64,000 bases of DNA from Butyrivibrio sp. Its GTDB lineage: Bacteria; Bacillota; Clostridia; Lachnospirales; Lachnospiraceae. Position 1 is the stretch's first letter. Each line of letters opens with the position of its first letter. Of the stretch, positions 31,987 to 43,244 are shown one piece after another. The position numbers were made by a program, and so were the translations under genes. Where the stretch lies: assembly GCA_015056565.1 (NCBI GenBank), contig SVGB01000006.1, positions 62,001 to 126,000 on the forward strand, given 5' to 3'. The notes beneath the pieces were generated by a model. It was given only the letters and a program-made list of their open reading frames with translations. It made no database searches and was not told the DNA's origin.

Positions 31987-32517
31987 ATGCCAAAAGTATC
32001 GAGTAAAGAGAACAAAAATCCATATTTTAGGAGGAGGGAGGAGCTTAAGCTCACCAGAGATCAGGCCAGCGAGCTGCTTGAGTCCATTCCCCCTGAGAGA
32101 ATAGAAAAGATTGAAAACGAGAGAGTATTTCCACATCCTGACGAAATCATGATCATGGCGGACAAGTACAAGTCCCCTGAGCTTTGCAATTATTACTGCG
32201 CAAATCAGTGCCCGATTGGGGAGAGGTATGTTCCTGAGATCAAGATGCAGGATCTTTCACAGATCGTCCTTAACACTGTGGATTCGCTTAACACAGTTCA
32301 GGACCAGCAGCGCAGATTTATCAATATCGCAGCTGATGGTGTCATTGACGACGCTGAGATCGACGATTTTGTGGACATCCAGGAGGAGCTTGAAAAGATA
32401 TCCATCGCAGTTGAGACTTTGCAGCTGTGGTCAGAGCAGATGCTGGCCAACGGCTCCATCAACGTTGAAAAATACGAAGCAAGAAAGAAACTGAAAAACA
32501 AGCAGGCTAAGGAGTGA
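31987..32517 (+). CDS. XRE-type helix-turn-helix regulator heading the dlt-like operon
   Basis: The 176-residue protein has an HTH at residues about 15-65 (LKLTRDQASELLESIPPERI, then IEKIENERVFPHPDEIMIMA), a Cys-containing link (NYYCANQCPIGERY) and a helical coiled-coil-like C-terminal half. It is a probable transcription factor. The ribosome site is AGGGAGGGCAGG. The ribosome site of the next gene (AAGGAG) overlaps its last codons and the gap is 9 bases, so it is cotranscribed with, and perhaps controls, the surface-modification genes. Confidence 0.75.
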   Translation: MPKVSSKENKNPYFRRREELKLTRDQASELLESIPPERIEKIENERVFPHPDEIMIMADKYKSPELCNYYCANQCPIGERYVPEIKMQDLSQIVLNTVDSLNTVQDQQRRFINIAADGVIDDAEIDDFVDIQEELEKISIAVETLQLWSEQMLANGSINVEKYEARKKLKNKQAKE

Positions 32518-32526
32518 TGAGGGGAT

Positions 32527-34092
32527 ATGGATTTTTTATCCTTAGGCTATATTGCGTTTACGGCAGCCGCTTTAGTTTTATATTACAGGCTTCCAAGGGC
32601 CCATCAGTGGAAGGTTCTGCTTGCTGCTAACCTATTATTTTACCTTCTTGTTGGCAGATGGAACATCGCCTTTATCCTTGTTACGGCGTTTTCTGTGTGG
32701 TATGCAGCCATCCTCTTAGACAGGCTTTCGGAGCAGTTTAAGGCCGCAAAAAAGACCGCTGAGAGCCGCGAAGAGAAGAAGGTCCTTAAGAGCAGATTTC
32801 AGAATAAGAAACGATTTGTGTTGTTCCTGGCACTGGTCCTGAACTTCGGGATACTGGCGTTTATGAAGTACTTCCGGGTAATGGGATCCTGGGGTCAGGG
32901 ACTTTTGGTGCCCCTTGGTATCTCTTTTTACACCTTCCAGGCAGTAGGATATCTTGTCGATGTTCACGGCGAGAAGTATGAGGCGGAAAAGAGATTTCCA
33001 AGGTTCCTTTTATTTGTATCCTTCTTTCCACAGCTGGTGCAGGGCCCTATTAACAGATATGGCAAGATGGGACCACAGTTTGAAAAAGAGCACAGCTGGT
33101 CAGCGGAAAGAGCTAAAAGAGCGGTGATATTGATCCTCTTTGGACTTATGAAAAAGTACGCTGTAGCCAACATGCTGACAGACAGCATAGCAAGGATATT
33201 TGATTCACCGGCTGACACAATCCCGGGATCACTGGTGGTTTGCGGCATTTTGCTTTATTCAGTTCAGCAGTACGCTGACTTTTCAGGCGGTATCGACATT
33301 GTTCTTGGCGTTGCACAGCTTTTTGACCTTGAGATGATGCCAAACTTCAGACAGCCCTATTTTGCGGTTTCTCTTGGAGATTTCTGGAGAAGGTGGCATA
33401 TTTCACTGGGAGCATGGATGAGGGATTATGTTTTTTACCCCTTTGCGCTTTTAAAGCCCATGCAGAACTTTGGAAAGTGGTGCAGCAAGCATCTTGGCAA
33501 GCACTTTGGAAGGGTGCTTCCTGCGGGAATCGCCAATATCCTGGTATTCTTCCTTGTTGGCGTGTGGCATGGAGCCTACATGCACTATGTGTGGTGGGGA
33601 CTTTATAACGGAATCGTCATAGCCCTTAGTGATATTTTGGAACCAACCTTTGGAAAGGTGTCAGAGCTTCTGCATTTGCCTCTAAAGAGCAGAGGAATGC
33701 ACATTTTCAGAGTTATAAGAACATTTGTTATTGTAAATATTGGCTGGTACTTTGACAGAATTGAGGACATGGGTCAGTGTTTGGCATGCTTTGGAAGAAC
33801 TGTTTCTGCTTTTAAACCAGGGGAGTTTTTGTATAGCTTTAGCAATGTCTGCCTTAATCCAGAACTTGTTAAGCCCATGTATGTTCTTGGCGGAATGGTC
33901 ATTGCACTTGTTGGAACTGTGGTCATATTTGCAGTTAGCCTTTGGAAAGAGCTTCATCCAGAGGAGGATATCCATGAAAGGTATGGAAACAAGGCTCTTA
34001 CAGGTCTTTCCTGGGTATTCCTATCAATGATGGTCCTTGTTTCCTTTGTATTTACAACAACTACAGGAGGTTTCCTATATGCGAATTTTTAA
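32527..34092 (+). CDS. DltB/AlgI-like MBOAT acyltransferase
   Basis: This 521-residue membrane-bound O-acyltransferase has about eleven helices. Hallmarks are FFPQLVQGPINRY (about 166-178), DFWRRWHISLGAWMRDYV (about 285-302) and GVWHGAYMHYVWWGLYNG with the likely active His348. In DltB, the enzyme moves D-alanine from a carrier protein across or at the membrane to teichoic acid. Here its neighbours are a carrier protein, an adenylation enzyme and a DltD-like protein, so it belongs to a dlt-like pathway. The acyl group moved may differ from D-Ala. The start is coupled to the XRE gene. Confidence 0.88.
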   Translation: MDFLSLGYIAFTAAALVLYYRLPRAHQWKVLLAANLLFYLLVGRWNIAFILVTAFSVWYAAILLDRLSEQFKAAKKTAESREEKKVLKSRFQNKKRFVLFLALVLNFGILAFMKYFRVMGSWGQGLLVPLGISFYTFQAVGYLVDVHGEKYEAEKRFPRFLLFVSFFPQLVQGPINRYGKMGPQFEKEHSWSAERAKRAVILILFGLMKKYAVANMLTDSIARIFDSPADTIPGSLVVCGILLYSVQQYADFSGGIDIVLGVAQLFDLEMMPNFRQPYFAVSLGDFWRRWHISLGAWMRDYVFYPFALLKPMQNFGKWCSKHLGKHFGRVLPAGIANILVFFLVGVWHGAYMHYVWWGLYNGIVIALSDILEPTFGKVSELLHLPLKSRGMHIFRVIRTFVIVNIGWYFDRIEDMGQCLACFGRTVSAFKPGEFLYSFSNVCLNPELVKPMYVLGGMVIALVGTVVIFAVSLWKELHPEEDIHERYGNKALTGLSWVFLSMMVLVSFVFTTTTGGFLYANF

Positions 34093-35143
34093 AAAGTATG
34101 GAACCTTCTTGTGTTTCATGTTATTGTTCATAATATTAAATCTTGGTTTATCATTTGCCCTAAGACCATATAGTGGATCCGGATCAGAGATGTGGAAGGG
34201 ATTTGCTGCTAAGGGGCAGGTAGACATGGTATATACCGGTACTTCTTTTTGCCTGTGCGACATTGATCCTGTGCTGGTGGATGAGGTGACAGGCCTTAAA
34301 TCCTACAACATGGGCACAAACATGCAGTCTATACAGAGCTCATATATAGCGCTAAAGCAGGCCATTGAAAGGGGCGGCGTGACCAGAGCCATTGTGGGCA
34401 TAGACCCAGAGATAATGGAGATGGAAAGAAAGGATAACTTCAGGGCTGAGGCATGCTTTGTAAGGAATCTCAGTGATACTCTGCCTGTTTCGAAAAAGAT
34501 CGCTGCAGATGCAAGTTTTGTGGCATCCAAAGACTTTATTGGAACCCCGTCATCAGTTCTTTACTACTTCCCATGGACCTACGACAGAGTAAGTAACGTT
34601 CCTTTGAACATAAGAGAAAAGCTCAAGGATCAGATCCTTGATATGACTGATCACAGGGATGTAAATGGTCATTACGGCTCTGATGAAAAATATGGCGAAG
34701 GCAGGCATTTCCTGGACCTTAGTACTCTTGTTAAGTGGAATAACGAGGTTGACGACCTTTATTACATAGATGTTAAGAAGGAGAATCTTGATACCCTTGA
34801 GGATATGGCAAGGCTTTGCAAGAAGAAAAATGTGGAGCTTTTCGTCATTGCTTTTCCTACAACCCAGGCGCTGTCTATTTACAGACTGGACAGTTACCAG
34901 GAATACACAGATCTTATCAGGAACATGCTCTCTAAGTACGGCATTGAGTACTATGACTACAACCTTGCAAAAGAGGAGTATGTGGACGTATTTAACCTTG
35001 AGATCTACAGGGATAACGGACATCTTAACAACAGCGGAACAGAGCAGTTTTCAAAGGCTCTTGGCACCATGGTGACAAAATATGAAAAGGGCGAAGATGT
35101 AAAAGAAATGTTCTACGATCTTCCGTCCTATGAAGGGAACTAA
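34079..35143 (+). CDS. DltD-like SGNH-fold membrane-anchored protein
   Basis: The 354-residue protein has one N-terminal membrane helix (KYGTFLCFMLLFIILNLGLS) and an extracellular SGNH-like domain. The catalytic Ser is in YTGTSFCLCDIDP (about residue 57) and the Asp/His pair in DNGHLNNSG near residue 330, as in DltD-type proteins. GGAGG precedes the ATG at 34079, which overlaps the MBOAT gene by 14 bases, so translation is coupled. It would complete transfer of the activated group to the cell-surface polymer. Confidence 0.8.
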   Translation: MRIFKKYGTFLCFMLLFIILNLGLSFALRPYSGSGSEMWKGFAAKGQVDMVYTGTSFCLCDIDPVLVDEVTGLKSYNMGTNMQSIQSSYIALKQAIERGGVTRAIVGIDPEIMEMERKDNFRAEACFVRNLSDTLPVSKKIAADASFVASKDFIGTPSSVLYYFPWTYDRVSNVPLNIREKLKDQILDMTDHRDVNGHYGSDEKYGEGRHFLDLSTLVKWNNEVDDLYYIDVKKENLDTLEDMARLCKKKNVELFVIAFPTTQALSIYRLDSYQEYTDLIRNMLSKYGIEYYDYNLAKEEYVDVFNLEIYRDNGHLNNSGTEQFSKALGTMVTKYEKGEDVKEMFYDLPSYEGN

Positions 35144-35146
35144 GAA

Positions 35147-36685
35147 ATGAGCTATTGCAACAGCGTTCTTGACCTCATAGAAGGTCAGGCCATTATCAAC
35201 AGGGACAAGATTGCCTTTACAGATCCGGTAAAAGAGATATCTTTCGGACAGTTATATCTCTTTTCCAGGAAAATAGGAACGTTTTTGGCTGGCAAGATTG
35301 AAAAGAGAAGCCCGGTTTCTTTTTACATGGAAAAGAGCTGCGATGCGGTGGTTGGAATGTTTGGCGCTGTGTACGCAGGGGGATTTTACTCATTTCTGGA
35401 CGTAAGGCAGCCAGTTGTAAGGGCTGAGAGCATTCTTAACACCCTAAAGCCACGAGTTATGTTTACGGATGTAAGTATGCTTGATAAGGCAAAAGAGCTG
35501 ACGCTCCCTGAAGGATGTGAACTTATTGTGCTTGATGAGCTCATTGAGCAAATGGATGAGCTTTCTATAGATGATGAGAAGCTTGGAAGTATAAGGGCTC
35601 TTTCCCAGGATATTGACCCATTGTACGTTAATTTCACCAGCGGAAGTACAGGAGTGCCCAAGGGCGTTACTGTCTGCCACCGCTCTGTGCTTGAGTTTAT
35701 AGGCTATTTTGTTGATATATTCGGGATTGAAGAGGGAGATGTTCTCGGAAATCAGGCGCCTTTTGACTTCGATGTGTCTGTTAAGGACGTGTATTCAGGG
35801 CTTATGTCTGGCGCCAGAACAGCACTGATCCCAAGGGACTACTTCAGTAACCCAATGACCCTTATGGACTACCTGGCAGACCAGAAGGTTACCGTGATCG
35901 TGTGGGCAGTGAGCGCCATGTGCTTTGTATCCATCATGAATGGCCTTGAGTACAGAAACCCTGACAGTATCAGGATGATCATGTTCTCAGGGGAAGTGAT
36001 GCCTGTTAAGCACCTGAATCACTTTAAAAAGTTTCTTCCTGAGGCTACCTACATAAACCTCTATGGACCAACAGAGATTACCTGCAACTGCTCATACCAC
36101 ATTCTTGACAGGGATTATGAGGAAAACGAGGTTATCCCGGCTGGAATCCCATTCCCCAATGAGCATGTTTTTTTGCTGGACGAAGAGGACAAGCTGGTTA
36201 CGGAGCCTGGCATGGAGGGCGAGATCTGCGTAACAGGAACAAGCCTTGCACTTGGCTACTACGGCGACAAGGAAAAGACTGACGCTGCATTTATGCAGAA
36301 CCCGTTAAATAAGCTTTTCCAGGAGATGATGTACAGGACCGGAGATATCGGAAGATACGATGAAAACGGCATTTTGTACTATGTTTCAAGGAAAGACTTC
36401 CAGATCAAGCACATGGGCCACAGAATCGAGCTTGGAGAGATCGAAGTTGCTGCAATGGCCACAGATGGCGTAACAAGGGCCTGCTGTATCTATGAGCCGG
36501 ATAAAAAGAAGCTTATCCTGTTCTACACAGGAGATAGGGATAAAAAGGAGCTCCAGGCGCATCTTAAAGAGGATCTTCCGCCATATATGATCCCATCAAC
36601 AGTAAAGCAGCTGGAAGAGATGCCAGTTAATAAAAACGGCAAGATAGACAGGACCTATCTTTTAAAAGAATGGAAAAACTTATGA
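35147..36685 (+). CDS. DltA-like amino-acid adenylation enzyme
   Basis: The 512-residue ANL-family ligase has core motifs VNFTSGSTGVPKG (161-173), LYGPTEIT (305-312), MYRTGDIGRYDENG, and the catalytic Lys in PVNKNGKIDR near the end. It would activate an amino acid as AMP ester and load it onto the carrier protein at 37960. It resembles DltA, but the position of the D-Ala-selecting Cys in DltA (FCGE segment) is Ser281 in MFSGE. The substrate may therefore not be D-alanine. Its stop overlaps the next start (ATGA). Confidence 0.88.
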   Translation: MSYCNSVLDLIEGQAIINRDKIAFTDPVKEISFGQLYLFSRKIGTFLAGKIEKRSPVSFYMEKSCDAVVGMFGAVYAGGFYSFLDVRQPVVRAESILNTLKPRVMFTDVSMLDKAKELTLPEGCELIVLDELIEQMDELSIDDEKLGSIRALSQDIDPLYVNFTSGSTGVPKGVTVCHRSVLEFIGYFVDIFGIEEGDVLGNQAPFDFDVSVKDVYSGLMSGARTALIPRDYFSNPMTLMDYLADQKVTVIVWAVSAMCFVSIMNGLEYRNPDSIRMIMFSGEVMPVKHLNHFKKFLPEATYINLYGPTEITCNCSYHILDRDYEENEVIPAGIPFPNEHVFLLDEEDKLVTEPGMEGEICVTGTSLALGYYGDKEKTDAAFMQNPLNKLFQEMMYRTGDIGRYDENGILYYVSRKDFQIKHMGHRIELGEIEVAAMATDGVTRACCIYEPDKKKLILFYTGDRDKKELQAHLKEDLPPYMIPSTVKQLEEMPVNKNGKIDRTYLLKEWKNL

Positions 36686-37917
36686 CAACAGAAAAGCTTA
36701 AGGAAATAGCAGCTACATATGGCACTCCGTCATTTCTTTTCGACGAAAAAGCCCTTAAAATGCGGCTTAGAGCCATCAAGGAAATAGTGGGAGATAAGGT
36801 TAGTTTGTGCTTTAGCATAAAGGCCAATCCATTTTTGATCCCGGCTATGCTTGATGTCACTGAGCGACTTGAGGTGTGCAGTCCGGGAGAGCTGGATATC
36901 TGCAAGAATCTAGGGGTGGATCCGGACAGGATCGTGTACTCAGGGGTTAATAAGACTGAGGATAATGTACGGGATGCGGCAGAGTACGGTGCAGGCATCT
37001 ATACTGCAGAATCTCTAAAGCACGTGCTCCTTCTTAATGACGAGGGAAGGCGCATGGGAAAGGCACTTCCTGTGCTTCTTAGACTAAACGGCGGAAGTCA
37101 GTTTGGCATGTCCAGAGAAGATCTTTTTAAGGTCCTTGAAAAGAGAGATGGCCTTGATGGCATTGAGATAAAGGGAATCCATTATTTTGCAGGAACCCAG
37201 AGAAAAAAGCTTATGCAGCAGCAAAAAGAGCTGCAGATGCTCAAAGACCTTTATGACGAGATAGAAGATACCTTTGGAGTAAGACTTGAAAAACTTGAGT
37301 ATGGTCCGGGACTTCCTGTGCCCTACTTTGATACAGAGGATTTTAATGATACATTAGCCCCTGTAAAAGAACTTTCTGATGCACTTAAGGAAACTGCCAC
37401 ATGGTGTGATCTGACCGTTGAAATGGGCAGATTTTTCACTTCTGAGTGTGGATACTATCTTACTAAGGTAATGGATATAAAATCCAATGAAGGTACCAAT
37501 TATTGCGTTGTAGACGGTGGTATGAACCATTTGACCTACCTTGGACAGATAATGGGCATGAAGATCCCTGTTATTCACAAGCTTGAGGCTGAAAATAGAG
37601 AAGATATCGATGTAGAGATCAATAATACCTTCGGAGAAGCAGAGCTTTGCGGCAATTTAGAGGACGGAGCAGCCGACTATGCCCTCTGCGGAAGCCTTTG
37701 CACCACTGCGGATGTCATTGTTAGACAAATCAGGTTGCAGGATTTGAAAATAGGGGATATACTTGCATTCTGTAACGTTGGAGCATATTCTGTTACAGAG
37801 GGAATATATTTATTCCTTAGCAGGACAATGCCAAGGATTCTCCTTGCCAAGGAAGATGGCAGTATCGTCGTGGCAAGGGACTTTACTGAGAGCAGCGTCT
37901 TAAACTACCAGCGTTAA
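36682..37917 (+). CDS. Fold-type III PLP decarboxylase (LysA/BtrK-like) inside the dlt-like operon
   Basis: The 411-residue enzyme has the PLP lysine at Lys47 in CFSIKANP. It also has the LysA-type segments RLNGGSQFGM (usually KFG; here QFG), IKGIHYFAGTQ, EYGPGLPVPYF, VEMGRFFTSECGYYL, the active Cys region CGSLCTTADV, and FCNVGAYSVTEGIYLFLSRT. It decarboxylates an amino acid or an amino-acyl group. Position between the adenylation enzyme and the carrier gene recalls BtrK of butirosin biosynthesis, which acts on a glutamyl group held on a carrier protein. The start chosen overlaps the upstream stop; an in-frame ATG lies 12 bases earlier. Confidence 0.85.
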   Translation: MTTEKLKEIAATYGTPSFLFDEKALKMRLRAIKEIVGDKVSLCFSIKANPFLIPAMLDVTERLEVCSPGELDICKNLGVDPDRIVYSGVNKTEDNVRDAAEYGAGIYTAESLKHVLLLNDEGRRMGKALPVLLRLNGGSQFGMSREDLFKVLEKRDGLDGIEIKGIHYFAGTQRKKLMQQQKELQMLKDLYDEIEDTFGVRLEKLEYGPGLPVPYFDTEDFNDTLAPVKELSDALKETATWCDLTVEMGRFFTSECGYYLTKVMDIKSNEGTNYCVVDGGMNHLTYLGQIMGMKIPVIHKLEAENREDIDVEINNTFGEAELCGNLEDGAADYALCGSLCTTADVIVRQIRLQDLKIGDILAFCNVGAYSVTEGIYLFLSRTMPRILLAKEDGSIVVARDFTESSVLNYQR

Positions 37918-37959
37918 TAGTAAAAACACGAAAAACATTGAGATTAAGGAGATTTTTTG

Positions 37960-38187
37960 ATGGAAGAGCTTTTGGATATCCTTTCAGAGATCAAGGATGA
38001 CGTGGATTTTGAAACAGAGGACAAGCTTATTGATGATGGAATACTGGATTCTTTTGATATCCTTCAGATCATAAGCGCATTAAATGATGAGTACGACATT
38101 TCAATCCCTGCATCTGAGATCATCCCGGAGAACTTTAACAGTGCAGAATCACTGTGGGAGATGGTACAGAGACTTCAGGAGGACTGA
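37960..38187 (+). CDS. DltC-like acyl/aminoacyl carrier protein
   Basis: The 75-residue carrier protein has phosphopantetheine attachment Ser31 in GILDSFDILQII. The four-helix carrier pattern continues to AESLWEMVQRLQED. It would carry the activated amino acid for the MBOAT protein. The ATG at 37960 follows AAGGAGATTTTTT; the TTG codon just before it is also in frame. It lies 42 bases after the decarboxylase and ends in a terminator, closing the operon. Confidence 0.9.
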   Translation: MEELLDILSEIKDDVDFETEDKLIDDGILDSFDILQIISALNDEYDISIPASEIIPENFNSAESLWEMVQRLQED

Positions 38188-38199
38188 TATTCAGTCCTC
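38179..38199 (+). terminator. Terminator of the dlt-like operon
   Basis: A perfect 9-bp stem (GAGGACTGA with TCAGTCCTC, 3-base loop) followed by eight T. It overlaps the stop codon of the carrier gene. Confidence 0.92.
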
Positions 38200-38204
38200 T
38201 TTTT

Positions 38205-39260
38205 TTATTTATTTCTGTTGGAAGCAGATTGCTTGCGGTAAGCAGAAGGGGTCATACCGGTATGTTTTTTGAACTGTCTGATGTAGTGTTCTGTAGTATC
38301 ATATCCAACAGCTTCTGCAATAGTCTGCACTGTCATGGTGGAATTTGCCAGAAGATCCTGGGATCTTTCAATCCTGACGGTTCTTAGAATCTCAGTATAA
38401 TTCATTCCCGTCAGTTCTTTTATCAGGCGGGAGGTGTATTCGGTGGAGTAATGAAATTTACTGGAAAGATCCGAGAGAGTAACGTCTTTGTAATTCTCCT
38501 GAATATACTGGATCAATGCGTAGCGCTGTACATCCACCCGAGAGTCAAAGAGTGGCATCTGGACAGACTCAGAGTATCTTCTAATGATCAGGTAAAAATC
38601 TAATAAAAGGGTATTGGTGATAGCCTGATAGTGATACTCTTCCTTGTTGAGGCTCTCTGACAGCATCCATATAAAGGACGTGGCTATGGCTTCATCCTGT
38701 CCGGTTCTGAACATGATATAATCATTGGCTTTCTTCGCATAAATATTATTAAGAAAGAATGATGAGAGAATATTCTGTGTATTTAGAAAAGAATAAAACA
38801 TGGTGTGAAGGGTATCGCGCCGTAACATGATATTGACCGCTATTGTGTCATCAAATACGGCAAAAGAGTGACTAATTCCAGGAGGGATCACACAAAAATC
38901 CCCTGTTCGCATTTCGATAGTTTTACCAGATATAGTCTGGGTGCATCTTCCGTCATATATATACGAAATTTCAAAAAAAGTATGACTGTGCTCTATGTCT
39001 GGACTGTAGCGCTCATGTTTTTGCACTACTATACTGTCATTATCGGTAAGATCAAAAAAGAAATAATCCTCGTATACTTTGGGGATTGTTTCTTTTTTTT
39101 CTTTTATGAGGAGGTGTTTTTTTAGCACCATATCCATGTTCAGGTTTTTTAGAAAAATATTCAGCTTTTCGGGATCTTGCCCGGCTAAATAGTAGTCCCT
39201 GTAAAACTGTTCTACTTCGGTAACGTCATATATATGTTGCTTCAAAGCGTTGGCTTCCAT
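38205..39260 (-). CDS. AraC family transcriptional regulator
   Basis: This 351-residue regulator has an N-terminal cupin-like sensor (HSHTFFEISYIYDGRCTQTI, then EMRTGDFCVIPPGISHSF) and a C-terminal pair of helix-turn-helix motifs (DLSSKFHYSTEYTSRLIKEL and AEAVGYDTTEHYIRQFKKHT). It is probably sugar-responsive. The ATG at 39260 follows AGAGGAAT; a TTG 30 bases upstream lacks a site. It is divergent from the sugar ABC/glycosidase operon, which it most likely activates. Confidence 0.9.
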   Translation of the reverse strand: MEANALKQHIYDVTEVEQFYRDYYLAGQDPEKLNIFLKNLNMDMVLKKHLLIKEKKETIPKVYEDYFFFDLTDNDSIVVQKHERYSPDIEHSHTFFEISYIYDGRCTQTISGKTIEMRTGDFCVIPPGISHSFAVFDDTIAVNIMLRRDTLHTMFYSFLNTQNILSSFFLNNIYAKKANDYIMFRTGQDEAIATSFIWMLSESLNKEEYHYQAITNTLLLDFYLIIRRYSESVQMPLFDSRVDVQRYALIQYIQENYKDVTLSDLSSKFHYSTEYTSRLIKELTGMNYTEILRTVRIERSQDLLANSTMTVQTIAEAVGYDTTEHYIRQFKKHTGMTPSAYRKQSASNRNK

Positions 39261-39406
39261 CTGTATTCCTCTAATCCGTATCTGGTCCAATTATCAGGAG
39301 AATCCTCTAATACAAATATAATATGCATCCAAAAGGAATATGTCAAAAAAGTACAATTAAATACAAAAAAAATTACTTTTAGATCAAAATACATCAACAG
39401 AATTGA

Positions 39407-39448
39407 ACAATATTGTGAATTATAATTATTCGCCATGGTACATATAAT
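39407..39448 (+). promoter_or_regulatory. Probable promoter/operator of the sugar ABC operon
   Basis: A 10-bp palindrome ACAATATTGT (39407-39416) precedes -10-like TATAAT at 39421 and 39443. No good -35 is present, which fits an AraC-activated promoter in this divergent region. Confidence 0.4.
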
Positions 39449-39490
39449 TACATCATGAAGTGGAGCCTTGATAGAAAGGAATAGGCAGTT

Positions 39491-40993
39491 ATGAATAAAC
39501 CAATTCTTGAGATGAAAAATATCAGCAAAAGGTTCGGCAGTGTTGTGGCACTTAATAAAGTGGACCTGACGGTTTATCCCGGAGAGATAAGAGGATTGAT
39601 CGGTGAGAATGGATCCGGTAAGTCCACAATATCCTCAATTGCAGCAGGAATGCAGAAGGCAAATGAGGGACAAATGCTTTTTAAAGGAATTAAATGGGAG
39701 CCAGCAAGTATGATAGATGCTCTAAATGGCGGCATAGGAATGGTCGTCCAGGAGAGTGGAACAATTGCAGGTATATCCGTTGCTGAGAATATGTTTCTTG
39801 CAGAGCTGGGAAACTTCAAAAACGGTTTTGGCCTGGTGGACAGGAAAAAACTTGAAAGTAAAGCAGACGAAGCTCTTGCAAACATCGGAATTGACAGTAT
39901 AAGCGGAAAGGACATGATGGGAAGCCTGGACTTTCAGGATAGAAAGCTGGTGGAAATCGCTAAGGTGATCATGAAAAACCCTGAAGTTCTGGTAATTGAT
40001 GAAACCTCCACAGCTCTTTCTCATGATGGAAGACAGATCATGTACGACCTGATCAAACGAATGAGGGATAATGGGAAATCTGTGCTGTTTATATCCCACG
40101 ATCTTGATGAGATCATGGAAACCTGTGACTCGCTGACAGTACTTCGAGACGGAAACATAATAAGAACTTTCAATAAGGACGAGTTTGATGCAGACGCTAT
40201 CAGAAGCAGCATGATCGGAAGAGAGCTTAAGGGCGATTACTACAGAGCAGATGCAGAATGTACCGCACTTCCTGAGGTGGCACTTAGTGCAGAGCACCTT
40301 TGGTATAAGGACATGTTAAAAGATATATCTCTTGAACTTCACAGAGGCGAGATAGTTGGAGTAGGAGGCCTTGCCAGCAGCGGGATGCATGCGCTGGGTG
40401 AAGCACTATTTGGGGCGATAACCCTTGATTCTGGTCGAGTGGTATGTAGCAGTGGAAAGGTGATTCAGAATCCGCACAACGCCATGGGACAGAAAATTGG
40501 ATATGTTTCAAAGGACAGAGACCAGAAATCCCTGTGCCTGGACGCCAGCATAAGAGATAACATAGCTATCGCCGGGATGAACATCTTTAAGAATAATTTG
40601 AATCTTCTTACTACTTTCAATGAAAAGAAATATGTAAAGAAGCAGGTAGATGACCTGAACATTAAGTGTTCCGACATGGATCAGACAGTAAGTCAGCTGT
40701 CAGGTGGAAATAAGCAAAAGGTTGTTTTTGGAAAGTGGATAGGTTGTGGCAGTGAAATCCTTATTCTCGATTGTCCGACGCGAGGCGTGGACATTGGTGT
40801 TAAGCAGGCTATGTATCAGCTTATGGTAAAGCTGAAAAATGAGGGAAAAGCCATTCTCATGATAAGCGAGGAGATGCCAGAGCTTATAGGAATGAGCGAT
40901 AGAGTACTCATTATGAAGGATGGGATCATCACGAAACAATTCAAAAGAAGCGGCTCTCTTAGTGAAGCTGACATCATCAGCTACATGATCTGA
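39491..40993 (+). CDS. Sugar ABC transporter tandem ATPase (RbsA/MglA type)
   Basis: The 500-residue protein has two ATPase domains. The first has Walker A GENGSGKST, signature region SLDFQDRKLVEIAK and Walker B VLVIDETST. The second has a degenerate P-loop (VGVGGLASSGMHALGEALFG), signature QLSGGNKQKVVFGKW and Walker B ILILDCPTRGVD. This is the layout of ribose/galactose-type importers. It is the first gene of a seven-gene operon reading to 48186. The sugar is unknown. Confidence 0.92.
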   Translation: MNKPILEMKNISKRFGSVVALNKVDLTVYPGEIRGLIGENGSGKSTISSIAAGMQKANEGQMLFKGIKWEPASMIDALNGGIGMVVQESGTIAGISVAENMFLAELGNFKNGFGLVDRKKLESKADEALANIGIDSISGKDMMGSLDFQDRKLVEIAKVIMKNPEVLVIDETSTALSHDGRQIMYDLIKRMRDNGKSVLFISHDLDEIMETCDSLTVLRDGNIIRTFNKDEFDADAIRSSMIGRELKGDYYRADAECTALPEVALSAEHLWYKDMLKDISLELHRGEIVGVGGLASSGMHALGEALFGAITLDSGRVVCSSGKVIQNPHNAMGQKIGYVSKDRDQKSLCLDASIRDNIAIAGMNIFKNNLNLLTTFNEKKYVKKQVDDLNIKCSDMDQTVSQLSGGNKQKVVFGKWIGCGSEILILDCPTRGVDIGVKQAMYQLMVKLKNEGKAILMISEEMPELIGMSDRVLIMKDGIITKQFKRSGSLSEADIISYMI

Positions 40994-41008
40994 GAAAGGT
41001 GAAGTGAA

Positions 41009-41989
41009 ATGACAAATAAAAAGAGAATTAATAATAAGCAAAAGTTGATAGCAGCGCTTCCAATAGCAGCTTTATTGATACTATTTGCGGTATTTCTGGC
41101 AGTTGTAAACATGAATGACTACAGGCTTGATATGTATCTAAAAATAGTCTTTAACGAAGCACTTGTACTAGCAGTAGTGGCAACCGGAGCAATTTTTATT
41201 TACACCCTGGGGACCTTTGACATAAGCCTTGGAGCTTCAACGCTATTTGCAGCCACCATGGGAGTTATGACATATAACTACACTCAGAGCCTTGCTCTTA
41301 TGATACTTGTGATCTTTGCGGTAGGCATTACAGCGTCGCTTTTAAATTCGGTTCTGGCCTCAGTTTTTCATATCCCTGCCTTTGTCACCACAGTAGCCAT
41401 GATGTCAGTTCTATCAGCACTTTCAGCTCAGATAATTACTAGCTTTGGTGGGGCACTGGGAGGAATCAGTATTCCTAGTGAAGTGATAAAGCCTTTTGAC
41501 AATGTCGGGTTTAAGGCAGCACTTCTCATTATATTTTTTGTAGTCTGCTTTTTCGTATTCCAGTTTACAAAGGCTGGAAGGCGAATGAAGTTCGTGGGAG
41601 GTAATCCTCTTTGTGCCGAACTTACAGGAATAAAACAGAGTAAGTACACAATAATAGCTTTTGTGATGGCGGGAATTGGGATAGGACTTGGAGCTTTTTT
41701 GACTCTTTGTTATACACCTTCAGTTACCACTACAACAGCTTCAAGTATTGGAATGAACATCTTTATCGCCATTGTATTTGGAGGAATGCCTATCTCAGGA
41801 GGCGCAAGAAGTAAGATCTACGCTGCGCTGATTGGAGGCTTCTCATATATTCTGCTCAATGACATTCTGGAAATTGTCATAGACAGTAGCGCAGCTTACG
41901 GCATTACACAGGTAATAAGTGCAGTATTTTTCCTGGCGGTCGTTTATGTCACCAGCATGAATTATAGAACAGCGCTGTTGCCCAGATAA
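41009..41989 (+). CDS. Sugar ABC transporter permease (RbsC type)
   Basis: The 326-residue inner-membrane permease has about nine helices. GTFDISLGASTLFAATMGVM and AFVTTVAMMSVLSALSAQII are typical of the ribose-type permease family, as is GMNIFIAIVFGGMPISGGAR. It starts 15 bases after the ATPase gene. A second permease of the same family is at 43259, so the complex is probably a heterodimer. Confidence 0.9.
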   Translation: MTNKKRINNKQKLIAALPIAALLILFAVFLAVVNMNDYRLDMYLKIVFNEALVLAVVATGAIFIYTLGTFDISLGASTLFAATMGVMTYNYTQSLALMILVIFAVGITASLLNSVLASVFHIPAFVTTVAMMSVLSALSAQIITSFGGALGGISIPSEVIKPFDNVGFKAALLIIFFVVCFFVFQFTKAGRRMKFVGGNPLCAELTGIKQSKYTIIAFVMAGIGIGLGAFLTLCYTPSVTTTTASSIGMNIFIAIVFGGMPISGGARSKIYAALIGGFSYILLNDILEIVIDSSAAYGITQVISAVFFLAVVYVTSMNYRTALLPR

Positions 41990-42044
41990 TGTAGCTAAGA
42001 GCAAAGAATAAAAACCGTAAACCGAAAGAGGAGGAAAAATCATT

Positions 42045-43244
42045 ATGAACAAAAAACTTACCAGAGCAGTAGGACTTGTTATGGCAGGGGCCATGACACT
42101 AATGGCAGGATGTGGAAATGCAGCACCTGCTGCATCGGGAGATGCGCAGACAACAGCCGCCACTGAGGAGACAAAAGAAACTGCTGCACCTTCAGGAGAC
42201 GCAAAGAAGATCGGTGTACTAGTTGCTGATGTCAGCGGTGAAGAAGCTCTCGGATTTAGGAACTACTATGAGAAATATATTCAGGGAAATTACGATGTGA
42301 CCTTTGATTATACTGATGCATTGGCAAGTGCAGAGGATGAGAAGGCTGCCATTGAGAAGTTTGCATCTAAGGGTTATGATGCGATCATTTCTTTATCAAG
42401 CAGTGACAGAGCACAGCAGATCGAGACCTGCGAGGAATATGGCCTGTACTATGCCATCGCATCAGGCGTTCTTGATGATGAGCAGTATGAGAAATATAAG
42501 GGTTATGAGCACTTTGTATGTCAGATCGGACCTTCAAACGCAACAGAGTTTGAGGCTGGAAAAGCAATGGGAGAGTATTTCAAGAATCAGGGAGTAAAGA
42601 AGGTGGCTCTTTATGGCGCATTTATTCCTAACCCAATGCATGTATTCAGGGCTGCAGGTGTTCTTGTCGGACTTGGCTGTACATATGGAGACGCAAATGA
42701 TATGGGAGCCGTAGTTGGTCAGATATTCCAGGATCAGGGTATCGATCCAACCAAGGTATCAGGTGATGTAGAACTTGTGGCATATCTTCAGGGATATGGA
42801 GACACAACTACAGATGAGCTCAATGCAGCAATCCAGAAGGCACCTGAGGCGTTCCTCTCAGTTGGAATGGCAACAACATTCTTTGCACAGACACTTTCTC
42901 AGGAGAACATACCTTTCGCTGATATTGATTCCTTCACAGCTATGAACAGTCAGTCAATGGAAAGCGGAAGCCTTAAGTATCTTGCTGGCAAGTATTCATC
43001 ATCAATTGGACCTGTTTTTGCACTGGTTGTAGACGCTGTTGATGGAAATGTGATCAGAGATGATGAAGGAAATGCAGTATCACTTAACCAGGGCTATCTG
43101 GTAGCAACAGATAAAGCCAGCTTTGATGAATATTTTGTTAATGACAATGGTGATACACCCATCTACGACAAAGAAACACTTGACGGAATTATAGGAAGTC
43201 AGGTTACTTATCAGGATGTTAAGAGCCTTGTAGAGAGTAAGTAA
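42045..43244 (+). CDS. Sugar-binding lipoprotein of the ABC importer
   Basis: The 399-residue receptor has a lipoprotein signal with Cys23 in TLMAGCGNA and a Thr/Ala/Glu-rich linker. A periplasmic-binding-protein-like fold follows (KKIGVLVADVSGEEALGFRN, then YDAIISLSSSDRAQQIETCE). It catches the sugar outside the membrane. It has a strong GAGGAGG ribosome site and lies between the two permease genes. Confidence 0.9.
   Translation: MNKKLTRAVGLVMAGAMTLMAGCGNAAPAASGDAQTTAATEETKETAAPSGDAKKIGVLVADVSGEEALGFRNYYEKYIQGNYDVTFDYTDALASAEDEKAAIEKFASKGYDAIISLSSSDRAQQIETCEEYGLYYAIASGVLDDEQYEKYKGYEHFVCQIGPSNATEFEAGKAMGEYFKNQGVKKVALYGAFIPNPMHVFRAAGVLVGLGCTYGDANDMGAVVGQIFQDQGIDPTKVSGDVELVAYLQGYGDTTTDELNAAIQKAPEAFLSVGMATTFFAQTLSQENIPFADIDSFTAMNSQSMESGSLKYLAGKYSSSIGPVFALVVDAVDGNVIRDDEGNAVSLNQGYLVATDKASFDEYFVNDNGDTPIYDKETLDGIIGSQVTYQDVKSLVESK

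Follow-up and report, generated by a model that had tools for sequence, protein, structure and literature searches.

Gene content of the locus

The stretch of DNA analyzed here (the window, 64,000 nucleotides of a Butyrivibrio sp. contig, SVGB01000006.1, positions 62,001 to 126,000) carries on its + strand, at 32527-38187, a run of five genes encoding an MBOAT acyltransferase, an SGNH/DltD-like protein, an adenylating enzyme (ADEN), a LysA-like pyridoxal phosphate (PLP) decarboxylase (DEC), and an acyl carrier protein (ACP). A preliminary description of these genes had them packed with overlaps, led by an XRE regulator, closed by one terminator, and possibly serving a dlt-like surface modification other than D-alanylation. 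The features are:

31987-32517, + strand: putative helix-turn-helix (HTH) regulator with HTH matches below threshold; it opens the run here and lies outside the conserved cassette.
32527-34092, + strand: MBOAT acyltransferase, DltB-like (PF03062, E 9.4e-17; TIGR04091, 152.5 bits, cut-off 375), with the conserved W347-H348-G349.
34072-34089, + strand: C-terminal hexapeptide FLYANF of the MBOAT, an FxYxxF acyl-shuttle motif with Tyr518 (motif described in excerpts of PMC12148441).
34079-35143, + strand: SGNH/DltD-like transferase with G54-T55-S56, D312, and H315 (PF04914 sub-threshold, E 0.006; best PDB match DltD 6pfx, E 1.1e-5).
35147-36685, + strand: stand-alone amino-acid adenylating enzyme ADEN (PF00501, E 1.6e-60), pocket code DVKVMSLCNK.
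36670-37917, + strand: fold-III PLP decarboxylase DEC, BtrK-like, with Lys51 and Cys344.
37957-38187, + strand: ACP (PF00550) with Ser32 for phosphopantetheine; the start is TTG 37957 or, more likely, ATG 37960.
38177-38201, + strand: intrinsic-terminator-like hairpin of 11 pairs with a T run, at the operon end.

The positions and + strand of the genes in the preliminary description were confirmed, with a terminator-like hairpin at the operon end. The regulator and MBOAT genes lie 9 nt apart, the MBOAT and SGNH genes overlap by 14 nt, 3 nt separate SGNH from ADEN, ADEN and DEC overlap by 16 nt, and 39 nt precede the ACP gene. For SGNH we took ATG 34079 as the start, the open-reading-frame listing having used a TTG further upstream. 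The Pfam domains found were MBOAT, AMP-binding together with its C-terminal domain, two Orn/DAP/Arg decarboxylase domains, and the carrier domain. The terminator-like hairpin spans the ACP stop codon; overall, the terminator scan gave 11 sites against 10.2 expected by shuffling. The promoter scan of the window was uninformative, with 33 sites where 23.6 (sd 5.0) were expected. The best HTH match of the regulator, HTH_31, reached 16.9 of the 27 bits needed (E 0.0082). Outside its own genome, L081 was the single fetched locus with a relative, which lies at a distance of about 5 kb from that cassette, so we do not count the regulator in the conserved unit.

Distribution and conservation of the cassette

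Relatives of DEC (E 1e-30 or better) were present in 60 of the 299 genomes sampled from the family, the window's own included, and in 15 of the 79 sampled from the genus. The phylum sample yielded 6 of 398 genomes with a relative at E 1e-60, two of which (L211 and L212) are not cassette DECs. Among named genome contigs, at least 595 stretches matched; tblastn at E 1e-3 identified at least 561 as relatives, and the best 80 were examined. Their hosts include Butyrivibrio, Gemmiger formicilis ATCC 27749, Lachnospira multipara, metagenome-assembled genomes (MAGs) of Ruminococcus and of Erysipelotrichaceae, and the Actinomycetota Olsenella and Tractidigestivibacter. A scan of viral contigs confirmed no relatives.

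Of the 60 family loci, 43 contain the complete five-gene set, as do 62 of the 80 named loci; several of the remaining loci are cut by contig ends. The window and the family loci supplied the search profiles, which makes the named loci, one of which (L163) duplicates family locus L033, a more independent test set. Gene order varies. On the DEC strand, ADEN-DEC-ACP-MBOAT-SGNH is the most frequent order in the family (29/60) and ADEN-ACP-DEC-MBOAT-SGNH in the named loci (25/80). The gene set of the preliminary description recurs in and beyond Lachnospiraceae, the window's own order being present in 5 of 60 family loci and 13 of 80 named loci. The patchy spread and reshuffled order suggest horizontal transfer of the cassette.

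ADEN lies within 500 bp of DEC on the same strand in 56 of the 60 family loci, and ACP in 51. None of the four partner genes was present in 19 LysA loci (about 4 kb each) taken as a control, compared with ADEN in 28, ACP in 24, and MBOAT in 15 of 29 cassette loci of similar size. Repeats in the counted sets, recognized by an identical stretch of 100 residues, include one pair of DECs, four of ADENs, and three of MBOATs. Ser32 of ACP is kept in at least 93% of 58 aligned rows; the pattern DS[FLYM] is seen in 95 of 133 sequences, most others differing before the Ser and some rows being mis-called frames. These observations show the cassette to be a real, widespread, and conserved unit, which would join Dlt-like export with decarboxylation that most likely takes place on a carrier. 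Canonical dltA was not associated with the cassette (3/60 genomes with the cassette versus 10/239 without, p = 0.73), and we rejected the idea that the cassette replaces it.

One named locus, L127 of Butyrivibrio sp. NC3005, has MBOAT, SGNH, DEC, and ACP, with no room for ADEN between SGNH and DEC.

A BtrK-like decarboxylase

The top NCBIfam score of the window DEC is to lysA (180 bits), followed by TIGR03099, and 21 of 21 aligned DECs match both families (best TIGR03099 E 5.5e-61). The lysA score is what speaks for DEC being a second diaminopimelate (DAP) decarboxylase, with the locus either an ordinary dlt operon that holds a lysine gene or one in which loaded DAP becomes lysyl-ACP. This score, however, is under the lysA cut-off of 297.9, and the same genome has another LysA-like gene (C40) at 273 bits, itself slightly under the cut-off. 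Moreover, although all 21 aligned DECs keep the PLP-binding Lys51 and Cys344, the Glu after Cys, the RPxxY motif, and the HIGS histidine of LysA are gone, and at these positions DEC and BtrK have the letters CTxxD and GTQ in common. Of 141 DECs, 140 have the pattern C-[TS]-x-x-D and the other is truncated at a contig end; a stricter loop pattern fits 130 of the 141.

The phylogeny agrees with these differences. In a quick tree of the window DEC and 52 rows sampled from 146 DEC-type sequences, supported by the Shimodaira-Hasegawa-like approximate likelihood ratio test (SH-aLRT) only, 52 of the 53 cassette rows form one clade (support 100), which a branch with support 99 places on the BtrK side. 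The remaining row, L091, groups with BtrK and probably does not belong to the cassette. By ancestry, as read from these sequences, DEC is distinct from LysA. The predicted fold (predicted local distance difference test score, pLDDT, of 88) leaves the two unseparated, as BtrK has the top VIA-align Z (40.5) and DAP decarboxylase is about tied with it (39.4). Given the loss of the distal Glu and RPxxY, we rejected a DAP group turned into lysyl on the carrier. Together with the tree position and with an ADEN that differs from DltA (see below), these data render a role of DEC as a second DAP decarboxylase very improbable. The preliminary description compared the embedded decarboxylase with BtrK, and both its constant presence in the cassette and its place on the BtrK side of the tree support this comparison.

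In L037 (6213-9557), the DEC frame extends to 1114 amino acids, with a long C-terminal part that by eye looks membrane-anchored and extracellular; the extension may be an assembly artefact.

The adenylating enzyme and its DEC-less siblings

The window ADEN falls well under the DltA cut-offs (262.2 of 559.85 for TIGR01734 and 274.6 of 476 for NF003417). Its pocket, with the ten positions located by motif, reads DVKVMSLCNK, while the canonical DltA proteins of the family read DLMVLCTV[AC] in 12 of 13 rows and DLFVICTGAK in the thirteenth (L097). As a check of the pocket reading, a nonribosomal peptide synthetase (NRPS) frame in L116 gave DLTKVGHIGK, one letter from an Asp/Asn code, DLTKVGHVGK, listed in excerpts of PMC12283262. 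Judged by sequence, the DltA scores and the different code led us to reject plain D-alanylation and support the earlier proposal of a dlt-like carrier-to-surface system with another substituent.

Among 132 ADEN frames in DEC-bearing loci, with at least 4 repeats, 100 have the code type of the window (type 1), 30 have a second type (IARxxSQASK), and two have other codes (L037 and L091); in one code count, 57 of 59 ADEN matches passed the length filter and were used. Most type 2 frames belong to records under the names Ruminococcus or uncultured Clostridia/Clostridiales. Its position 235 is Ile rather than Asp, so that an amino group, if any, would be held in some other way. Position 239 is Lys or Arg in both DEC-linked types and Met or Phe in the 13 canonical DltA proteins; this basic residue suggests an acidic substrate.

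In order to compare ADENs that lack a neighboring DEC, we hand-picked, not at random, 40 further DltA-like loci without DEC from the DltA matches. Most have other codes, 17 are of a DAKC type that also has Lys239, and five are type 1. Lys239 as a mark of decarboxylation is ruled out by its presence in the DAKC-type siblings. In 14 of the 17 DAKC-type loci (within L213-L252), ACP, MBOAT, and SGNH lie in the same locus, and we predict that these loci specify another surface aminoacylation.

In three of the five type 1 loci without DEC, a protein with a formyltransferase domain (Formyl_trans_N) takes the DEC slot (L223, 6522-7388; L243, 2-850; L252, 4156-5040), possibly for N-formylation on the carrier, by analogy with LgrA. 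Of the other two, L229 has a GNAT protein after MBOAT and L251 has neither. That the type 1 pocket is kept while DEC is exchanged for a formyltransferase-domain protein fits loading before tailoring. In the ADEN tree, the sampled DEC-linked ADENs and the five type 1 DEC-less ADENs form one clade with support 90, below the 95 mark; by ancestry, ADEN is distinct from DltA. This tree used 36 of the 132 DEC-linked rows, and a length filter removed long NRPS-like frames. L037 and L091 were omitted, as were 12 further loci, of which four bear DEC and seven are repeats; the twelfth, L113, is not a repeat and belonged in the tree. A formyltransferase-like stretch was also seen by tblastn near the DEC-bearing locus L075.

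The predicted export step and the probable acceptor

Every complete cassette MBOAT (120/120) has a Tyr at the fourth position from the C-terminus, in a DltX/PatA-like hexapeptide that is strictly FxYxxF in 88, and the WHG His is likewise invariant in all 120; another 14 of the 134 MBOATs, cut at locus ends or no longer than 400 amino acids, were left out. In the 27-row SGNH alignment, G54 and H315 are invariant and S56 and D312 are kept in at least 90%. SGNH scored 16.4 against the 22.7 needed for PF04914 (DltD), and the best solved match of its predicted model (pLDDT 94) is E. faecium DltD, although superposition was weak (template modeling score, TM, 0.39-0.41). According to excerpts of PMC12148441, PatA is acetylated on its acyl-shuttle Tyr, and the Dlt system pairs a carrier with DltX whereas other MBOAT-SGNH pairs use acyl-CoA and have the motif on the MBOAT. 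On sequence grounds, the cassette joins a carrier protein with an acyl-shuttle motif fused to the MBOAT.

We checked seven genomes in which no MBOAT was found beside DEC. Five of these have a cassette-type MBOAT elsewhere (E 1e-102 to 1e-119); the best MBOAT is at 2.9e-62 in G139 and only at E 6.7e-34 in G101. We inspected nine such separate MBOAT loci by eye and domain-scanned ten proteins drawn from five of these loci. MBOATs or MBOAT-SGNH pairs sit in sugar-polymer loci in G008, G043, G094, G191, and G257, with ABC-2 permease or Wzt-type genes in all of these but G191, which has nucleotide-sugar genes including RmlD. No exporter was seen by eye in the other separate MBOAT loci, that of G139 included. 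Because MBOATs lie in sugar-polymer loci in five genomes, the acceptor is likely a glycan. The surface polymer proposed earlier as acceptor thus finds a counterpart in the MBOAT-SGNH pairs of polysaccharide loci, but the evidence favors exported glycans over teichoic acid.

These data also bear on whether the cassette instead makes a small secreted or lipid-linked NRPS-like molecule, with MBOAT and SGNH acylating that product and not a polymer. The trio ADEN-DEC-ACP matches the VinN-VinO-VinL trio of macrolactam synthesis (PMC11284099, in part) and constitutes the entire same-strand set in 6 of the 60 family loci, as such a role would have it. In five of six genomes checked for this, however, a cassette-type MBOAT lies elsewhere, in a polysaccharide locus, at the E values given above (the sixth is G139), and the acyl-shuttle-type Tyr is present on every complete MBOAT, so that we regard a small-molecule product as quite unlikely.

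The window's own genome has nine MBOAT matches at E 1e-10, so the organism may carry out more than one kind of surface acylation.

Substrate and the pantothenate question

Decarboxylation on the carrier needs the amino acid to keep its α-amino acid head free, which points to attachment via the side chain, in line with VinN/VinO and BtrK (PMC11284099 and PMC7857480, both in part). As described in excerpts of PMC11253843, the conserved Asp of VinN also holds the β-amino group, and VinN is characterized by a shortened loop together with residues of greater bulk at positions 236 and 301. By comparison with that description, Val236 and Ser301 of the window ADEN fit, whereas its β13-β14 loop shows no gap against LgrA and may not be shortened. 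Between the two acidic substrates, Asp (giving β-alanyl) may be placed slightly ahead of Glu (giving a γ-aminobutyric acid, GABA, group).

One genome, G101, has the gene run panB-panC-coaBC-ADEN-DEC (L070/L272, 4238-10300), PanC being identified by Pfam and PanB and CoaBC by eye. PanC is present in this genome and no PanD match was found, nor was a cassette ACP found within 18-19 kb around ADEN-DEC. The run hints weakly at conversion of Asp to β-alanine and at a possible carrier-based source of β-alanine. The hint is weak because pan/coa genes also lie near a DEC-less ADEN or a lone ACP (L241 and L273) and because, among PanC-containing genomes, the cassette occurs in 2 of 4 without PanD versus 13 of 69 with PanD (Fisher p = 0.18). 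In L054, coaBC is beside a full cassette. Supply of β-alanine for pantothenate was rejected as a general role, as only G101 shows the run among the loci read and the association gave this same p value; no PanC match at E 1e-30 was obtained in 45 of the 60 cassette genomes. Separately, in G002, a PanC-containing genome without a PanD match, a cassette-type ACP lies one gene ahead of panB-panC-coaBC (L273, 7561-7788).

G101 also speaks for a different order of events, in which DEC acts on free Asp or Glu and ADEN then loads β-alanine or GABA onto ACP for the surface: with no PanD match, no nearby ACP, and only a weak MBOAT match, the run looks like a supply of free β-alanine for pantothenate. 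Several observations argue against it. The five DEC-less siblings retain the type 1 pocket, and DEC lacks the residues by which LysA holds the distal group. Its substrate-facing stretches (282-300 and 341-348) have no invariant basic residue in 21 rows, K298 being replaced in several; the invariant basic residues K95, R138, R254, K271, and R403 lie outside them. Even in G101, which lacks a close cassette-type MBOAT, ADEN is retained next to DEC, and the occurrence of pan/coa genes near DEC-less relatives and the Fisher test apply here as well. On balance, we consider decarboxylation of the free amino acid unlikely.

Proposed pathway and comparison with known systems

The best explanation for the cassette is, in our view, a carrier-based surface aminoacylation with on-carrier decarboxylation, which we hold to be fairly probable as a whole; its substrate, side-chain loading, step order, and acceptor are inferred. 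ADEN would activate an acidic amino acid with ATP and load it onto the ACP thiol, probably via the side-chain carboxyl. DEC would then remove the free α-carboxyl on the carrier, as BtrK and VinO do, leaving an amine-ended acyl group (β-alanyl from Asp or 4-aminobutyryl from Glu). The MBOAT would pass this group through the membrane and accept it on its C-terminal Tyr. From there the SGNH Ser may take the group and form an ester with a glycan of the cell surface; in some genomes, a Wzm/Wzt-type ABC transporter probably exports this glycan. A broader proposal, to which we give somewhat less than even chances, is that gut anaerobes have a modular type of surface decoration, made by a DltA-like loader, an exchangeable tailoring enzyme that works on the carrier and sets the charge, and a Tyr-fused MBOAT with SGNH that writes onto an exported glycan, the DEC version giving a β-alanyl or GABA ester. 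The exchangeable enzymes are likely a decarboxylase, a formyltransferase, or an acetyltransferase.

The cassette resembles the Dlt system (DltA-DltX-DltB-DltC-DltD) in AMP-forming loading, a stand-alone carrier, an MBOAT with a conserved His, a Tyr acyl shuttle, and an SGNH transferase. It differs in that MBOAT and ACP are, like ADEN and SGNH, below the corresponding scores (for ACP as DltC, 39.1 of 68 and 27 of 52.35; for MBOAT as DltB, the TIGR04091 score listed above), in the ADEN pocket, and in the extra decarboxylase. With gaps of at most 39 nt the cassette has no room for DltX, which was not searched for elsewhere in the genome, and the motif is on the MBOAT. PatA/PatB and other MBOAT-SGNH acetylation pairs share the C-terminal FxYxxF-type motif and the SGNH partner but, as outlined in PMC12148441, use acyl-CoA and no carrier protein, whereas the cassette has a carrier and a loading enzyme.

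For the decarboxylation step, the closest parallels are VinN-VinO-VinL and FlvN, which combine a stand-alone adenylation enzyme, a PLP decarboxylase acting on a carrier-bound acidic amino acid, and a stand-alone ACP. In these reactions VinO decarboxylates 3-methylaspartyl-VinL and FlvN accepts Asp; the product joins a polyketide, and the excerpts mention no MBOAT-SGNH export (PMC11284099). The loop residues Lys330/Arg331 of VinN (PMC11253843, in part) are Cys/Asn in the window ADEN, and VinO was compared by description. BtrK of butirosin synthesis (PDB 2j66 and 7ru7), which decarboxylates glutamyl-BtrI (PMC7857480, in part), resembles DEC in fold score and in the CTxxD and GTQ letters at 22-24% identity. 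We know of no MBOAT-SGNH step in the butirosin pathway.

Two further systems load amino acids or match at the family level. The exosortase-A-associated pair TIGR03098 (ligase) and TIGR03099 (decarboxylase) has no function known to us; the aligned DECs match TIGR03099 and the window ADEN matches TIGR03098, but the window proteins are far under the cut-offs (168.5 of 478.45 and 192.1 of 592.35). AlmE, compared by description (PMC11253843, in part), resembles ADEN in that it charges a carrier with an amino acid in an AMP-forming reaction, the amino acid being destined for the surface (lipopolysaccharide), and differs in using glycine and no decarboxylase. Open-access titles and abstract starts yielded no description of such an operon, subscription literature being mostly outside this coverage.

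If the proposed pathway is correct, surface charge in many gut and rumen anaerobes would be tuned by a group other than D-alanine that is edited on the carrier before export, and commensals such as Gemmiger formicilis would bear β-alanine or GABA esters on their surface. Two separately known chemistries, export of the Dlt/PatAB type and on-carrier decarboxylation of the BtrK/VinO type, would be united, and a carrier protein would operate together with a fused acyl-shuttle motif.

Neighboring genes

In four genomes (L034, L038, L049, and L050), ADEN-DEC-ACP adjoins a purA-like gene (adenylosuccinate synthetase, by eye). In the window itself, the genes next to the cassette (38205-43244) were named by eye as an operon for a sugar-type ABC transporter and, on the - strand, an AraC-type regulator.

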